The notes beneath the pieces are model-generated. The model ran no database searches. It was not told the DNA's origin and saw only the letters and a list, made by a program, of their open reading frames with translations. Of a stretch of DNA of 44,606 bases, positions 27,850-43,486 are shown one piece after another; position 1 is the first letter of the stretch, and each line of letters begins with the position of its first letter. The DNA comes from Parvularculaceae bacterium. GTDB lineage: Bacteria > Pseudomonadota > Alphaproteobacteria > Caulobacterales > Parvularculaceae. A program made the position numbers and the translations under genes. Location of the stretch: positions 1-44,606 of the forward strand of contig JAJFFW010000043.1 of assembly GCA_021776435.1 (NCBI GenBank). Reading direction: 5' to 3'.

Positions 27850-28052
27850 AGCATTTCCGGTCTTAACCGGGTCATCATTAACCCTCATCCTCATCCTGAG
27901 GCGCCCTGACGGCGAGAAGCCGACAGGGCGTCGCGAAGGATGGGCCATACGCTCTGAGCCCGCCGTCCATCCTTCGCGACGCCTTCGCCACTTTCGCGGC
28001 GAAGGCTCCTCAGGATGAGGGAGGTGATTCAATCGAGACCGGAAATGCGCTA
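27847..28052. mobile_element. 206-bp MITE-like element, copy A
   Basis: Bounded by 17-bp terminal inverted repeats TAGAGCATTTCCGGTCT and (reverse complement) TAGCGCATTTCCGGTCT, with one mismatch. Inner arms pair CTCATCCTGAGG with CCTCAGGATGAG, and GGCGTCGCGAAGGATGG with CCATCCTTCGCGACGCC. A second copy of the same length and about 96% identity (8 differences counted by eye) is at 43782-43987. It carries no gene; a small open frame inside is an effect of the palindrome. The left TAG is the stop codon of serB and the right CTA gives the stop codon of the convergent protease. Confidence 0.85.
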
Positions 28053-30470
28053 GAACCCGAAACCAGAACGTATAAGGAGTGTTGTGGCGCCTTCACCACT
28101 CGGTCCCGCAGAAAACTGGCGAAGCAGATTGAGTTCCAGCCCCGCGCCGAACGGTCCCGCAATGGAATATCGGGCTTCGAGATCGATTTCTCGCTCACCC
28201 GCGCCCAGGGGCACACTCATATTCGAAAACGTCAAGGTTTCCGTCCGCTTATCGAATCCAGTCGGTAAAATCAGATCCAAAGTGCCGCTTTCAACGCGCA
28301 GCGGTTGGGTCGCCGAGAGCGTCAATCTATCGCCGGCGGCGAATAGTCCCTGATTCGAAAGAGCGACCGAAACCTGGGATGTAACGATATCGGAAAGTCC
28401 ATCGTAGAATCCGACCCCCTTCCCGCCAGCGCTCCGTGTCAAACCAATTGAATATCGGCCCTGGAGGCGCCAATCATTCGAAAGCGCCCAAGCGCCTGCA
28501 ACAGCATTATAAAATGTCATCGAATCAACCCGCTCAGCAAAGGCTGAGCCAAAGCGGGCGCCAAGAACACCGCCGCGCTCATATCGCAGACCGCCCTCTA
28601 CTCGCAGGAACCCTTTGTCGAATGAACGCGTCGCGCCTGCTCGCAGAGAAGTAATCTGCTCTGAGGATAATCCATCGCGATCAAAACCAGAGACATCCCT
28701 TTCCCCATTCTCATTTTCGTCACCAAACGAATGTGACATCAAAATGTCATAATGGAGAAGGGCATCTGCACGACCGATGGCAATCACACTCGTCAGGGCC
28801 TCATCCGTTTTTGCAAGATAAGCATCCGCAAAAGCGTCGCGCGCCAAAAGCCTTCCTTCATTCTGCTCGCCAGTAAGCGTATCGATTTCAACAGGCGTAA
28901 ATCCGTTTCCGACGGTCACATTCACTGTGTTGCTGAGCGGTTGCGTAAGGGCGATCGCGAGGGTTCGGTCTAGCTCTTCTTCCTGAGTAGATAAACCAAA
29001 ACGATCCGAACGCGCCGCAAGGTTTGCATCGAAAAATGTCAGATCACGACTTTCGAGGCGCAACCTTAGCGCGCCCTCACCCACTCTTTTGGCAGCGGAT
29101 TGATAGGCGGTAAAGGGATGAATTTGAGCAATCGGATTGGCGCGCTGATCTCCTGCGGGTTTAACAAGTCCGTTGAAATTCGCACTAAAATCGCGGTTAA
29201 AAGAATCCAAGACAATAAGATTACCGATATTGAGTGTGGCGTTACCAAACGGCGCCGACATTGAAACACTGGCGTCAGCGATACTGCTGGTATTGCCATT
29301 CACGCTGCTCGTCGTGGTCGGACCGAGCGGAGCAATGGCGGCGCCTATGTTTAACAGACCTCGTCCAAAAATGAGATCCGTCCCCGGAGCGCCAAGATCT
29401 GTCGCCGAGGTTAAAAGAATATCCACAACCTCCGCCGCCGTGAGTTGGGGCCAAAGCTCGCGGATGAGAGCCGCCGCACCTGATACGTGCGGCACCGCGG
29501 CGCTGGTGCCGCTAAATGTCTCTAATCCACCAGGCCCTCCGGCGATAGAAACTGTAGGTATCAGACGCCCAGGCGCGACAATAAAAAAATCAGCTCCAAT
29601 GCCCGCGCGATTGCTGAACGAAGCAATTTGGTTATTGAAGTCAACTGCGCCGACAATAATAACGGAGCCACGCGCCTCAGGATCTAACGCTGCAAGAGAA
29701 GATGGTTCCGGATCATCCAACCCGTCATTACCAGCGGCGATCGCCACCAACAGGTCGTTGATTGAAGTGAAATCAAAAATATTTTGAAAATCAGCTCGTG
29801 CTAGAGGATCATCCGAACCCAAGGACAGATTGAGAACGTCAGCACCGAAATTAACTGATCGAGCAATTCCTTCGACGATTGGGTCGCCTAGAATCACCAA
29901 TGTGTCGGTCTCATCGTCACCGCGGAACACCAAGAGTTGGGCTTCCGGTGCAACGCCGTGAATACCCAGCCCGTCTTTCGCCGCGCCAAGGATGCTCGCA
30001 ACTGACGTGCCATGACCATCAACATCCTGAAGATTGGGTCCGCCAGGGCGCAAATCCGCAGCATCAACAATACCGCTATCAACAAGATCGGCGCTACGCG
30101 AATCGATCCGGCCGGCGAATTCAGGATTGTTGACGTCGATACCTGTATCGATGATCGCCACAAGGGCTCCCGCCCCAAACGCTCCCTTTTCAAAGGCTGG
30201 CACGACATTGATTTGAGCGAGGCCGGGCTGCCGTTGAAATTCAACTGTATCGAAGTTCGGCGGTGGCGGTGGCGGTGGAGGTGGTGGTGGAGGTGGTGGA
30301 GGCGGCGGAGGAGGAGGTGGCGGCGAGACGGTGGGGCGACTCGATCCGCCACTCGAACAGGCAACCAAAAAGCTTGAACTCAATACAAAGCTTGTAGCGA
30401 TCAGAAGTTTCGCGAGCACTTGCAGTTTTCGTCGATGAGACGAAATACGAAACAATCGATACGGCATCAA
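28050..30470 (-). CDS. Subtilisin-like (S8) serine protease with C-terminal barrel-like region
   Basis: 806 residues. The N-terminus has an export signal with a lipobox-like FLVAC (Cys38), a short Ser/Gly linker and 22 consecutive prolines (50-71). The S8 domain carries the triad Asp108 (AIIDTGID), His153 (DGHGTSVAS) and Ser323 (FSGTSAAVPHVSG), with oxyanion Asn248. From about 400 to 806 the sequence is rich in alternating polar/hydrophobic strands and ends in SGFGF, a terminal Phe typical of outer-membrane barrels. This suggests an autotransporter-like subtilase exposed at the cell surface. The barrel assignment is inferred from pattern, not from a recognised motif. It is the second gene after the amidase on the minus strand; its stop codon is supplied by the inserted repeat. 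Confidence 0.85.
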   Translation of the reverse strand: MMPYRLFRISSHRRKLQVLAKLLIATSFVLSSSFLVACSSGGSSRPTVSPPPPPPPPPPPPPPPPPPPPPPNFDTVEFQRQPGLAQINVVPAFEKGAFGAGALVAIIDTGIDVNNPEFAGRIDSRSADLVDSGIVDAADLRPGGPNLQDVDGHGTSVASILGAAKDGLGIHGVAPEAQLLVFRGDDETDTLVILGDPIVEGIARSVNFGADVLNLSLGSDDPLARADFQNIFDFTSINDLLVAIAAGNDGLDDPEPSSLAALDPEARGSVIIVGAVDFNNQIASFSNRAGIGADFFIVAPGRLIPTVSIAGGPGGLETFSGTSAAVPHVSGAAALIRELWPQLTAAEVVDILLTSATDLGAPGTDLIFGRGLLNIGAAIAPLGPTTTSSVNGNTSSIADASVSMSAPFGNATLNIGNLIVLDSFNRDFSANFNGLVKPAGDQRANPIAQIHPFTAYQSAAKRVGEGALRLRLESRDLTFFDANLAARSDRFGLSTQEEELDRTLAIALTQPLSNTVNVTVGNGFTPVEIDTLTGEQNEGRLLARDAFADAYLAKTDEALTSVIAIGRADALLHYDILMSHSFGDENENGERDVSGFDRDGLSSEQITSLRAGATRSFDKGFLRVEGGLRYERGGVLGARFGSAFAERVDSMTFYNAVAGAWALSNDWRLQGRYSIGLTRSAGGKGVGFYDGLSDIVTSQVSVALSNQGLFAAGDRLTLSATQPLRVESGTLDLILPTGFDKRTETLTFSNMSVPLGAGEREIDLEARYSIAGPFGAGLELNLLRQFSAGPSGEGATTLLIRSGFGF
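30258..30323 (-). repeat. Proline-codon tract (22 prolines)
   Basis: 66 bp on the minus strand read as 22 CCN codons with CCG, CCA and CCT mixed, so the tract is kept at protein level rather than by a pure DNA slippage repeat. It separates the putative lipid anchor from the protease domain. Such runs usually need translation factor EF-P to avoid stalling. Confidence 0.9.
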
Positions 30471-41227: not shown

Positions 41228-41253
41228 GGAATAAAGCGTCGGGGTCACACGTC
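41228..41253 (+). promoter_or_regulatory. Candidate ECF-type sigma factor promoter
   Basis: GGAATA at 41228-41233 and CGTC at 41250-41253 are 16 bp apart, the layout of several ECF sigma promoters (GGAAT-like -35, CGTC -10). The start codon of the repeat protein is 39 bp downstream. It is a short motif and could be chance. Confidence 0.4.
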
Positions 41254-41291: not shown

Positions 41292-42401
41292 ATGTCGAGA
41301 TTTATGGCATCCGCAAGTACATTCGCCCTGTCCGCCACACTCTTTTTGAGTGCGCCCCTCAGCCCGGCGCATGCAACCTCAGCACAACACGCACCCCTGC
41401 CAGCCATCAGCACCATGATGCTTCTGCAGGCTAGCGATGACAATCAGCCTGGTGCTGATGATGACGATGATGATTTAGACGAAGACGGCGTTAAGCGCCG
41501 CGGTGATGGCACGGTCGATGACGATCAGCCCGGCGCTGACGACGACGATGATGACGATGATTTAGATGAAGACGGCGTTAAGCGCCGTGGTGACGGCACG
41601 GTCGACGACGATCAGCCCGGCGCTGACGACGACGACGATGATGATGATCTAGACGAAGACGGCGTTAAGCGCCGTGGTGACGGCACGGTCGACGACGACA
41701 ACCCAAACCTGACATCCGAAGAACGCGCCGCGCTGAGAGCCGAGCGTAAATTGCTGAAGGCTGAACGAGACGCGGCCAAAGACGCTGAGAAGGCAGCGCG
41801 CGACGCGGCCAAAGACGCTGAGAAGGAAGCCCGCGAAGCGGCCAAAGACGCTGAGAAGGAAGCCCGCGAAGCGGCCAAAGACGCTGAAAAGGAAGCCCGC
41901 GAAGCGGCCAAAGATGCAAAAGAAGCCGCCAAAGACGCTGCTGACGAAGCTGATGAAGCTGCCAAAGACGCCGCTGACGAAGCTGATGAAGCTGCCAAAG
42001 ACGCCGCTGACGAAGCCGAAGAAGCCGCCAAGGACGCCGCTGACGAAGCCGAAGAGTCCGCCCGCGAAGCCGCTGACGAAGCCGAGGAGTCCGCCCGCGA
42101 AGCCGCTGATGAAGCCGAAGAGGCCGCCCGCGAAGCTGCCGACGAAGCCGAAGAAGCCGCCCACGAAGCTGCTGACGAAGCCGAAGAAGCCGCCCGCGAA
42201 GCCGCTGACGAAGCCGAAGAAGCCGCCCGCGAAGCTGCTGACGAAGCCGAAGAGGCCGCCCGCGAAGCTGCCGACGAAGCCGAAGAAGCCGCCCGCGAAG
42301 CCGCTGAAGAAGCCGAAGACGAAGCCCGCGAAGCTGCTCGCGACGATGTCGAGGACGAGGCCGATGATGAGGCTAAACAAGGCGGCAAGGGTAAAGGTTG
42401 A
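41292..42401 (+). CDS. Secreted Asp-rich / 11-residue-repeat helical protein
   Basis: 369 residues, no enzyme domain recognised. A signal peptide (about 1-29) is followed by three acidic repeats (49-75, 76-104, 105-133) of the type DQPGADDDDDDLDEDGV then KRRGDGTV. These recall calcium-binding DxDxDG motifs. After a short linker (TSEERAALRAERKLLKAE) come 17 in-register eleven-residue units (159-345): five of the REAAKDAEKEA type, then KDAADEADEAA, then REAADEAEEAA. The tail is acidic then KQGGKGKG. Eleven-residue Ala/charge repeats form near-straight helices and are typical of LEA-group-3 proteins. A periplasmic or extracellular rod is likely. Ribosome site GGAG is 7 nt before the ATG. An outer-membrane barrel gene follows 93 bp downstream. 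Confidence 0.8.
   Translation: MSRFMASASTFALSATLFLSAPLSPAHATSAQHAPLPAISTMMLLQASDDNQPGADDDDDDLDEDGVKRRGDGTVDDDQPGADDDDDDDDLDEDGVKRRGDGTVDDDQPGADDDDDDDDLDEDGVKRRGDGTVDDDNPNLTSEERAALRAERKLLKAERDAAKDAEKAARDAAKDAEKEAREAAKDAEKEAREAAKDAEKEAREAAKDAKEAAKDAADEADEAAKDAADEADEAAKDAADEAEEAAKDAADEAEESAREAADEAEESAREAADEAEEAAREAADEAEEAAHEAADEAEEAAREAADEAEEAAREAADEAEEAAREAADEAEEAAREAAEEAEDEAREAARDDVEDEADDEAKQGGKGKG
41436..41690 (+). repeat. Three tandem acidic-repeat units
   Basis: One 81-bp and two 87-bp units encode the Asp-rich repeats (27, 29 and 29 residues). The last two units are almost identical at DNA level, pointing to recent duplication. The first has two Asp codons fewer. Confidence 0.9.
41766..42326 (+). 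repeat. Seventeen tandem 33-bp units (hendecads)
   Basis: 561 bp of 33-bp units encoding eleven-residue helical repeats, all in register. Neighbouring units are more alike than distant ones (Lys-rich first, Glu-rich last), which fits stepwise tandem expansion. The copy number may vary between strains. Confidence 0.9.
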
Positions 42402-42403
42402 TA

Positions 42404-42447
42404 AACAATAACCCGACGGGCGGCCTGCGGCCGTCCGTCTCATTGTT
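42404..42447 (+). terminator. Hairpin between the repeat protein and barrel genes
   Basis: AACAAT (42404-42409) pairs with ATTGTT (42442-42447) around a GC-rich inner stem (GACGG..GGCC and GGCCGTCCGTC, TGC loop). Only a weak T-run follows, so it may be a partial terminator that reduces expression of the downstream gene. Confidence 0.55.
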
Positions 42448-42494
42448 TGGGGGTGTTTCACCCTTTAATTTGAACGAAAAACGAGGCAGAAAAC

Positions 42495-43415
42495 ATGAAG
42501 ATGAAGCCCATTTCGACGATCGGCGCGCTCGCCTTCATCGTCACGCCAGCCGCTGTTATTAACGGGGCTCAAGCGAAGGACAGTCCTGTCAGCATCGAGG
42601 TTTCTACAGGCGTCGAATATGACGACAATCTATCCGTCAACGAAATTGACCAAAACTCCAGTCAAGATGACTATTCTGCTCTTCTTGATGCAGAAATAGA
42701 GTTCAAACACGAATTAAGCGATGGAACCAGTTTTTCAGCTGGTTATAACTTTTCCCAAAGCTTGCATTTCGATCGCACCGAGTTCGACATTCGTTCGCAC
42801 CGAGGGGCGGTTGGCGTAACCCATGACTTCGGCGATTTTGATTTAGGCATCGATTACACCTATGTCTATTCCACACTCGATGAAGCCGGTTTCCTGACCT
42901 ACCAGCTACTGTCTCCCTATATCGCATCCAGCCTTACAAGGAAAATATATGTGCGCGCGGCCTATTCGTATGCGGATAAGGATTTCAAATCCCGCCCGAC
43001 TCGCGATGCAGAAGTAAACGCCGGCGGCGTCGATGTTTTCTATTTCCTCAATGGCACAAAGACCTATCTCCTGTTGGGCTATAAATATGAAAATGAGGAT
43101 GCCGTTGGGCCTGAATTCGATTTCAATGCTCACAATGTCAAGGTGCGCCTGACGCAGAAGTTTCCAATCTACGGGCGCGACGCCGCTTTGAAAATTGGTT
43201 GGCGCTATGAGAATCGGAATTATGATTCGATCACGCCATCAATCGGCGTCATCAGAGATGACGAGCGGCAACGGTTTCAAGTTGAGTTAGAGGTTCCACT
43301 TTCGGAGCATTTTTACGCCTCGGCGGAATACGAATACGCCGACTTTGACTCCAATCTTCAGTCAGTGAATTATACGCAGAATCTCGCTACTATCCGACTC
43401 GGGGCAAAATATTAG
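42495..43415 (+). CDS. Outer membrane beta-barrel protein, unknown function
   Basis: 306 residues with a signal peptide (about 1-27, cleavage near AQA). The mature part begins VSIEVSTGVEYDDNLSVNEI and is built of alternating strands such as FSAGYNFSQSL, LGIDYTYVYS, YVRAAYSYADKDF, YLLLGYKYENED, LKIGWRYENRNYDS and YASAEYEYADFD. It ends TIRLGAKY with a terminal aromatic residue, as expected for barrels inserted by BAM. About 12-14 strands can be counted. The opening resembles barrels of the surface-lipoprotein-assembly or DUF560-like type, but no family is certain. It may be co-transcribed with the repeat-protein gene. Confidence 0.82.
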   Translation: MKMKPISTIGALAFIVTPAAVINGAQAKDSPVSIEVSTGVEYDDNLSVNEIDQNSSQDDYSALLDAEIEFKHELSDGTSFSAGYNFSQSLHFDRTEFDIRSHRGAVGVTHDFGDFDLGIDYTYVYSTLDEAGFLTYQLLSPYIASSLTRKIYVRAAYSYADKDFKSRPTRDAEVNAGGVDVFYFLNGTKTYLLLGYKYENEDAVGPEFDFNAHNVKVRLTQKFPIYGRDAALKIGWRYENRNYDSITPSIGVIRDDERQRFQVELEVPLSEHFYASAEYEYADFDSNLQSVNYTQNLATIRLGAKY

Positions 43416-43420
43416 CCCTG

Positions 43421-43448
43421 GCTTATAGCATCGGGCTTATAGCATCGG
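43421..43448. repeat. Tandem duplication of 14 bp
   Basis: GCTTATAGCATCGG occurs twice in a row directly after the barrel gene. The second copy supplies the left arm of the terminator stem. Confidence 0.85.
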
Positions 43449-43486
43449 GCGATAAATCAGGATCGCCCGATGCGATCGTTTTCTTT
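43443..43486 (+). terminator. Rho-independent terminator of the barrel gene
   Basis: CATCGGGCGAT (43443-43453) and ATCGCCCGATG (43462-43472) form a perfect 11-bp stem with an 8-nt loop. A T-rich stretch (TTTTCTTT) follows a few bases later. Confidence 0.8.

Follow-up and report, generated by a model that had tools for sequence, protein, structure and literature searches.

The window, i.e., the whole analysed stretch of 44,606 nucleotides from a Parvularculaceae bacterium (contig JAJFFW010000043.1), contains a gene for a secreted protein of acidic and helical repeats, and the question is what such a protein could do and with which genes it belongs. This marine bacterium seems to export a strongly acidic repeat protein of rod-like shape, apparently not a desiccation protein of the plant type, as one member of a five-gene set (an alternative sigma factor, an anti-sigma factor, a subtilisin-type protease (S8), an outer-membrane barrel and the repeat protein) that is found in two bacterial classes.

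Architecture of the repeat protein

41292..42401, + strand: secreted acidic repeat protein, 369 aa (single open reading frame, homologues)
41292..41375, + strand: putative Sec signal peptide, aa 1-28 (by-eye reading)
41460..41720, + strand: three 29-residue acidic repeats, core DG[VL]KRRGDGT[VI]DDDQPG (repeat finding, alignment)
41772..42332, + strand: 17 in-register 11-residue helical units (counting, AlphaFold2 helix)

The signal peptide, the three acidic repeats and the 17 eleven-residue units noticed in the sequence-only reading are all present in this frame. The N-terminus, read by eye, resembles a Sec signal peptide ending in ...PAHA before TS, and the signal regions of relatives are similar in the alignment. 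Cys is absent from the protein, which is therefore not a lipoprotein. Homologues with 57-64% identity across the aligned part are encoded in three genomes (Marinicaulis sp. MAGs). The long open reading frames on the opposite strand of the array (258 and 270 aa) reflect its repeats and were not taken as genes.

The acidic repeats are detected by Tandem Repeats Finder as three 87-bp copies at 41460-41698. The 29-residue units are DDDDDLDEDGVKRRGDGTVDDDQPGADDD, with the third unit diverging toward its end, and the differences among the copies are distributed over codon positions 1:2:3 as 6:2:20. An RGD triplet (within KRRGDGT) lies inside each repeat, at 41499-41507 and at the equivalent place in the other two; in the first two repeats it is invariant across four aligned sequences.

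These repeats had been likened to DxDxDG loops, which could bind calcium. The likeness holds in the window, where the three repeats contain DLDEDG, and is lost in the three relatives, where five of the six aligned copies read DIGxDG, so that the third Asp is not conserved; the three close homologues retain DG[LV]KRRGDGT[IV]DDDQPG. The acidic part gave neither a TSP3 or EF-hand match nor any other Pfam match up to E 10, and its PDB sequence matches were none up to E 1. AlphaFold2 modelled it with low confidence and no confident fold. A calcium-binding repeat rod of the TSP3/EF-hand type, suggested by DLDEDG, is extremely improbable in view of these profile results and of the reading DIGxDG in relatives.

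The hendecad array comprises exactly 17 consecutive 11-mers (aa 161-347). At a lag of 11, 164 of the 217 residue pairs in aa 142-369 are identical, versus 53.6 on average (sd 5.8) and at most 73 in 2000 shuffles, and the hydrophobic period is 3.66. The 33-bp units differ mostly at third codon positions (210:112:746 for positions 1:2:3), and the protein sequence is therefore apparently kept; judged from the sequence, the array looks coding-constrained. Slippage of a simple repeat free of function was set aside because of this third-position bias and the conserved gene association described below.

The earlier expectation of an exported, helical, rod-like protein is backed by prediction, namely by the by-eye signal peptide and by the AlphaFold2 model, in which residues 142-364 form one helix (block pLDDT 93-97 over residues 161-330; the run had 4 sequences in the alignment and a pTM of 0.29). 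At 1.5 Å per residue such a helix would be about 33 nm long. The net charge of the protein after aa 30 is -92.

Assignment of the array to the LEA group 3 desiccation proteins, which the 11-residue repeat (17 units) had suggested, was not borne out by the profile searches. LEA_4 was unmatched both by the hendecad part at E<=10 and by the whole protein up to E 1, in searches where the HMMER filters may lose weak matches. The top Pfam match of the hendecad part was Apolipoprotein (E 0.0071; 16.5 bits, the cut-off being 90), and searches with the whole protein and with its parts yielded nothing above any cut-off. Eleven further matches, mostly designed helical proteins together with apolipophorin-III and apolipoprotein A-IV, were taken as composition matches.

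The downstream barrel and the repeat proteins of relatives

42402..42449, + strand: GC-rich stem-loop between repeat and barrel genes (folding z -2.9)
42495..43415, + strand: outer-membrane beta-barrel protein, 14 strands, 306 aa (BBP2_2, AlphaFold2)

What had been observed in the repeat gene was right, and the decisive clues to its role lie outside it: in a motif upstream, in a barrel gene downstream, and in S8, sigma and anti-sigma genes elsewhere in the genome.

The barrel gene follows the repeat gene on the same strand after 93 nt. Its product matches BBP2_2 (9.1e-10), a sequence family likeness shared with EpsL, but its score of 26.3 lies far under the EpsL cut-off of 275, and exopolysaccharide families are absent among the six window proteins scanned. 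The AlphaFold2 model (mean pLDDT 86.7) has 14 strands, as in porins of the CymA/OmpG fold, and the closest structural neighbours of this predicted model are CymA (Z 22.9) and OmpG (Z 21.6); the protein differs from them in sequence (11-15% identity) and in its genetic partners. A 14-bp tandem repeat lies directly after the barrel gene at 43420-43450.

The barrel is found in 17 of the 62 genomes of the window's family. Its distribution in the order is patchy (14/200 genomes at E<=1e-10), and at E<=1e-15 it is encoded by 4 of 385 genomes in the class and 6 of 398 in the phylum, the own genome being included in each of these counts.

Repeat protein and barrel stand in the same order in the genomes of the three close homologues. 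The search with the barrel profile uncovered more repeat proteins upstream of barrels, with similar signal-peptide regions and with mature parts consisting of hendecads (period about 3.7), tetrads (period about 4.0) or both (by eye L004, L032 and L055). Hendecads are not constant even in the family: 4-residue repeats replace them in some relatives at the same locus, i.e., arrays at one locus switch between 11-residue and 4-residue periods. Some repeat proteins of other families are weakly periodic, and in another family of the same class (G943) a hendecad protein precedes the barrel. Array sequences change quickly, but the signal peptide and the position before the barrel are retained. Barrel loci lacking a repeat protein occur in four genomes of the window's family (G009, G023, G059, G060) and in 7 of 29 of a family of another class. 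Other-class repeat proteins (L097, L098, L100, L101 and others) often carry a C-terminal GLGI, LGL or IGQ and are nearly devoid of Lys and Arg. Ala-rich hendecad proteins such as L007, L009, L011 and L017, found within the window's bacterial family among other hendecad matches, look membrane-anchored or lipoprotein-like and were not counted as homologues.

A periplasmic hydration or chaperone shield, acting in an LEA-like manner and induced by envelope stress, would be consistent with the very hydrophilic Ala-rich 11-mers, with their predicted helix and with the stress-type sigma motif described below. LEA group 3 proteins share Ala-rich charged 11-residue repeats with the array; the protein here differs from them in being apparently exported and strongly anionic. 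With LEA_4 unmatched, the net charge of -92 and the hendecads abandoned for tetrads in same-locus relatives, such a shield is quite improbable.

The gene pair could also be read as an export system, in which the barrel would export the repeat protein, the latter would form a polyanionic surface layer, and a protease would trim this layer. The persistence of the signal peptide and of the place before the barrel despite array turnover agrees with this, as does the same-strand arrangement with its 93-nt gap and an intergenic hairpin possibly favouring the first gene. Folding z values of this region range from -0.6 to -4.1 in 12 stretches including the window; at least 9 of the 12 have a stem of about 9 bp or more shortly downstream of the repeat gene, with differing sequence, which could lower read-through or stabilise the first transcript. 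Against it, the barrel model is porin/CymA-like with an extra domain absent, and by a rough in/out rule the lumen is not net positive (net charge -5 for the barrel of the window, and between -12 and +4 among the 15 barrels examined), so that a charged lumen is unsupported as an argument for an export channel. A secreted matrix of this kind is unlikely.

Promoter motif, S8 protease and sigma factor

41228..41253, + strand: ECF-type promoter motif GGAATA-N16-CGTC, starting 64 nt before the start codon

The motif GGAATAWN{14,15}CGTY has a single match in the window (0.21 expected; at least one match in 18 of 100 shuffles). Across the 2.96-Mb genome there are 21 matches, versus 9 for the reversed control. 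Three of the 21 sites lie in front of genes of the set (the repeat gene, sigma and S8), and this common motif ties the repeat gene to the unlinked sigma locus. Three other sites (L154, L157, L162) precede open reading frames of at least 250 aa, so the motif is not unique to the set. A dyad scan of 52 upstream regions placed GGAA-N17-CGTC among the top pairs, with 13 regions versus at most 5 in five letter shuffles.

In the form GGAA[ACT], the motif was found upstream of 15/17 repeat genes, 14/18 sigma genes and 13/17 S8 genes; the 13 S8 hits comprise 8 GGAATA and 5 GGAATT at varying distances. Among the 54 barrel loci scanned, 39 have a repeat gene in view, and at 34 of these the motif lies 41-91 nt before the start; the motif-bearing loci of the preceding counts are largely the same as these, and the two scans are not independent tests. 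The 39-locus set was assigned by hand and excludes G003, whose repeat gene is cut by the contig end; for G061 and G498, about 120 nt were searched. In shuffled controls of the 39 loci, 0-15 per 100 shuffles match anywhere in the stretch. All 22 repeat loci of the other class have the motif (the division into 22 loci with and 7 without a repeat protein was likewise made by hand). It is absent at five of the 39 loci, of which G048, G342 and G445 have a sigma gene, and G040 and G943 have neither S8 nor sigma nearby. At L092 and L093 (two genomes), where the ECF motif is absent, a gene for an OmpR-like response regulator (by eye) immediately precedes the repeat gene. As far as sequence can tell, sharing of the motif is well supported.

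The S8 subfamily at E<1e-110 is encoded in 15 of the 62 family genomes, all of which are barrel-positive (Fisher 1.5e-12); this line was set after the scores had been seen, and the next genome (G012, 1.4e-104) is barrel-negative. At E<=1e-40, 16 of 23 S8-positive family genomes are barrel-positive (Fisher 1.3e-8). For these family statistics the related genomes are not independent, and the match is partly by construction, since profile rows had come from 10 of the 15 genomes with S8 and from 12 of the 17 with the barrel. S8 lies near the barrel on one contig in 14 of the 15 family genomes. G023 and G040 have a barrel and no close S8 relative, and in G943 neither S8 nor sigma is near the hendecad protein and barrel.

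The test in the family of another class, for which both profiles were built solely from sequences of the window's order, is cleaner than that in the window's family. There, the barrel and S8 are each found in 29 of 147 genomes, and these 29 genomes are identical. The two genes are close on one contig in 28 of the 29; in G1020 they are on two contigs, each hit near a contig start. Chance co-location was set aside because of this co-occurrence and the motif at repeat loci. At the level of sequence, the association of the repeat protein, barrel, S8 and sigma genes is well supported.

The sigma/anti-sigma pair was surveyed in wider stretches of 22 loci, 19 of them with S8, among which is the locus of the window's own genome. 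An ECF sigma gene is divergent from S8 at 18/19 S8 loci and an anti-sigma gene is present at 17/19, the misses being at contig ends (the G033 contig starts inside S8, leaving sigma out of view); 6 and 8 of the scanned loci had supplied the sigma and anti-sigma profiles, respectively, and those match by construction. The barrel loci lacking a nearby S8 (G943, G040, G023) have neither sigma nor anti-sigma within the stretch examined. In the window's genome, sigma/anti-sigma and S8 are located on a different contig, C91 (29552-32933 of 54311), at a distance of over 20 kb from either end. The genome's own sigma factor exceeds the TIGR02937 ECF cut-off, and Sigma r2/r4 matches are strong in the three sigma proteins scanned. 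The anti-sigma matches to zf-HC2 and RseA_N are weak and below cut-off, and the genome's own anti-sigma protein is only weakly matched. Leaving aside the G838 protein, three of four scanned anti-sigma proteins match RseA_N below cut-off; two of these three and the G342 protein reach E 0.01. The G001 protein matches zf-HC2 only and the G838 protein neither. By eye, the anti-sigma proteins contain a TM segment, and two Cys are conserved in their C-terminal part.

Repeat arrays also occur on the protease. In barrel-positive genomes, the N-terminal arms of the 13 complete S8 frames are 224-462 aa long, with a hydrophobic period of 3.98-4.04 in 12 and an Asp+Glu fraction of 0.35-0.54 in 9. The arms of seven S8 relatives away from barrels (six from barrel-negative genomes and the distant G040 copy; two more loci had no frame) measure 77-135 aa, with Asp+Glu at most 0.15. 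In the other class, long S8 frames (584-695 aa) occur at 6 of the 7 loci lacking a separate upstream repeat protein and at none of the 22 loci having one (maximum 509); this trade-off comes from three genera (g513, g510, g452). Acidic arms with a period near 4 occur in G838, G1008 and G970; the G1040 arm is acidic, and those of G973 and G1010 are only weakly periodic. G1040 and G970 have a further acidic-repeat gene divergent from the barrel. An array can reside on S8, on a protein of its own, or on each of the two, and the arm lengths, composition and trade-off suggest, on balance, that array and protease belong together.

Known systems and possible functions of the gene set

According to PMC6180224, the ECF26 group comprises sigma factors with TM anti-sigma factors and the promoter consensus GGAATA (-35) / GT (-10); in Sinorhizobium meliloti, RpoE6-EcfR6 is divergent from the serine protease SMa0142 in an arrangement called widely conserved, and the functional role of RpoE6 is given there as undefined. 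The genes considered here resemble that description (PMC6180224): the GGAATA/GT motif is found upstream of the repeat gene at 41228-41253, and the ECF sigma and anti-sigma genes are divergent from a serine protease gene on contig C91. Plasmids of Sinorhizobium medicae and Aminobacter have S8, sigma and anti-sigma genes in the same order. What differs is that the promoter set considered here additionally includes a barrel and a secreted acidic repeat protein. The regulatory core thus looks like the already known ECF26 arrangement, which the repeat protein and barrel seem to extend in a way not described before; no paper on the repeat-protein/barrel/S8 module was among the matches listed from the open-licence PMC literature.

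The explanation given about an even chance is that the repeat gene is an output of an ECF26-like circuit, and that its product acts in an envelope response at the outer membrane together with the barrel and S8, likely as a scaffold or tether. The membrane anti-sigma factor would release sigma, which would transcribe the genes of the repeat protein and barrel, the sigma operon and the S8 protease gene from GGAATA-N16-CGT promoters. The repeat protein would be exported, form a long and highly acidic helical rod, and act alongside the barrel and S8 in the outer membrane region, where it would most likely hold the protease at the barrel or the cell surface. The export signal, the predicted helix, the shared promoter motif and the conserved gene association lend sequence-level support to these steps; we infer in addition the recognition of the motif by sigma, contacts among the proteins, anchoring or passage of the rod by the barrel, and a stimulus. 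An orphan low-complexity protein would in this way become a likely member of a sigma-factor regulon, and the ECF26/serine-protease arrangement of the RpoE6 type would acquire outer-membrane partners that are conserved across two classes, which opens its role to direct genetic testing.

Alternatively, S8 could be more than a product of the circuit. The set resembles RpoE-RseA-DegS in having an ECF sigma factor, a weak RseA_N match, a serine protease and an outer-membrane protein, and differs in that the protease is a subtilase instead of HtrA/PDZ, the barrel and repeat protein are gene-linked, and cleavage is hypothetical. S8 might serve as the site-1 protease cutting the anti-sigma factor, tethered by the acidic arrays to the barrel; a change in the outer membrane would free S8 and start the response in the OMP-DegS-RseA manner. 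The divergence of S8 from sigma/anti-sigma in the 18 S8 loci with sigma in view, the TM segment and two conserved C-terminal Cys of the anti-sigma proteins (by eye), the strict barrel-S8 co-occurrence in the other class and the occurrence of arrays either on S8 or on a separate protein are consistent with such a relay. However, three rhizobial plasmid loci have S8, sigma and anti-sigma with neither barrel nor repeat protein annotated within 7 kb, in gene tables that may be incomplete, the barrel is unmatched by tblastn in the plasmid collection, and regulon products are not necessarily its sensors. This relay, the boldest of the rival readings, is possible, though doubtful, and the same holds for the view that acidic helical arrays, separate or on S8, couple the subtilase to the barrel and so control both anti-sigma cleavage and their own synthesis; if true, this control would represent a new outer-membrane signalling architecture.

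Another S8 protease is encoded in the window at a separate locus (28050-30470, - strand); it has a proline run after a Cys-containing leader, and its C-terminal part, judged by eye, may be an autotransporter barrel.
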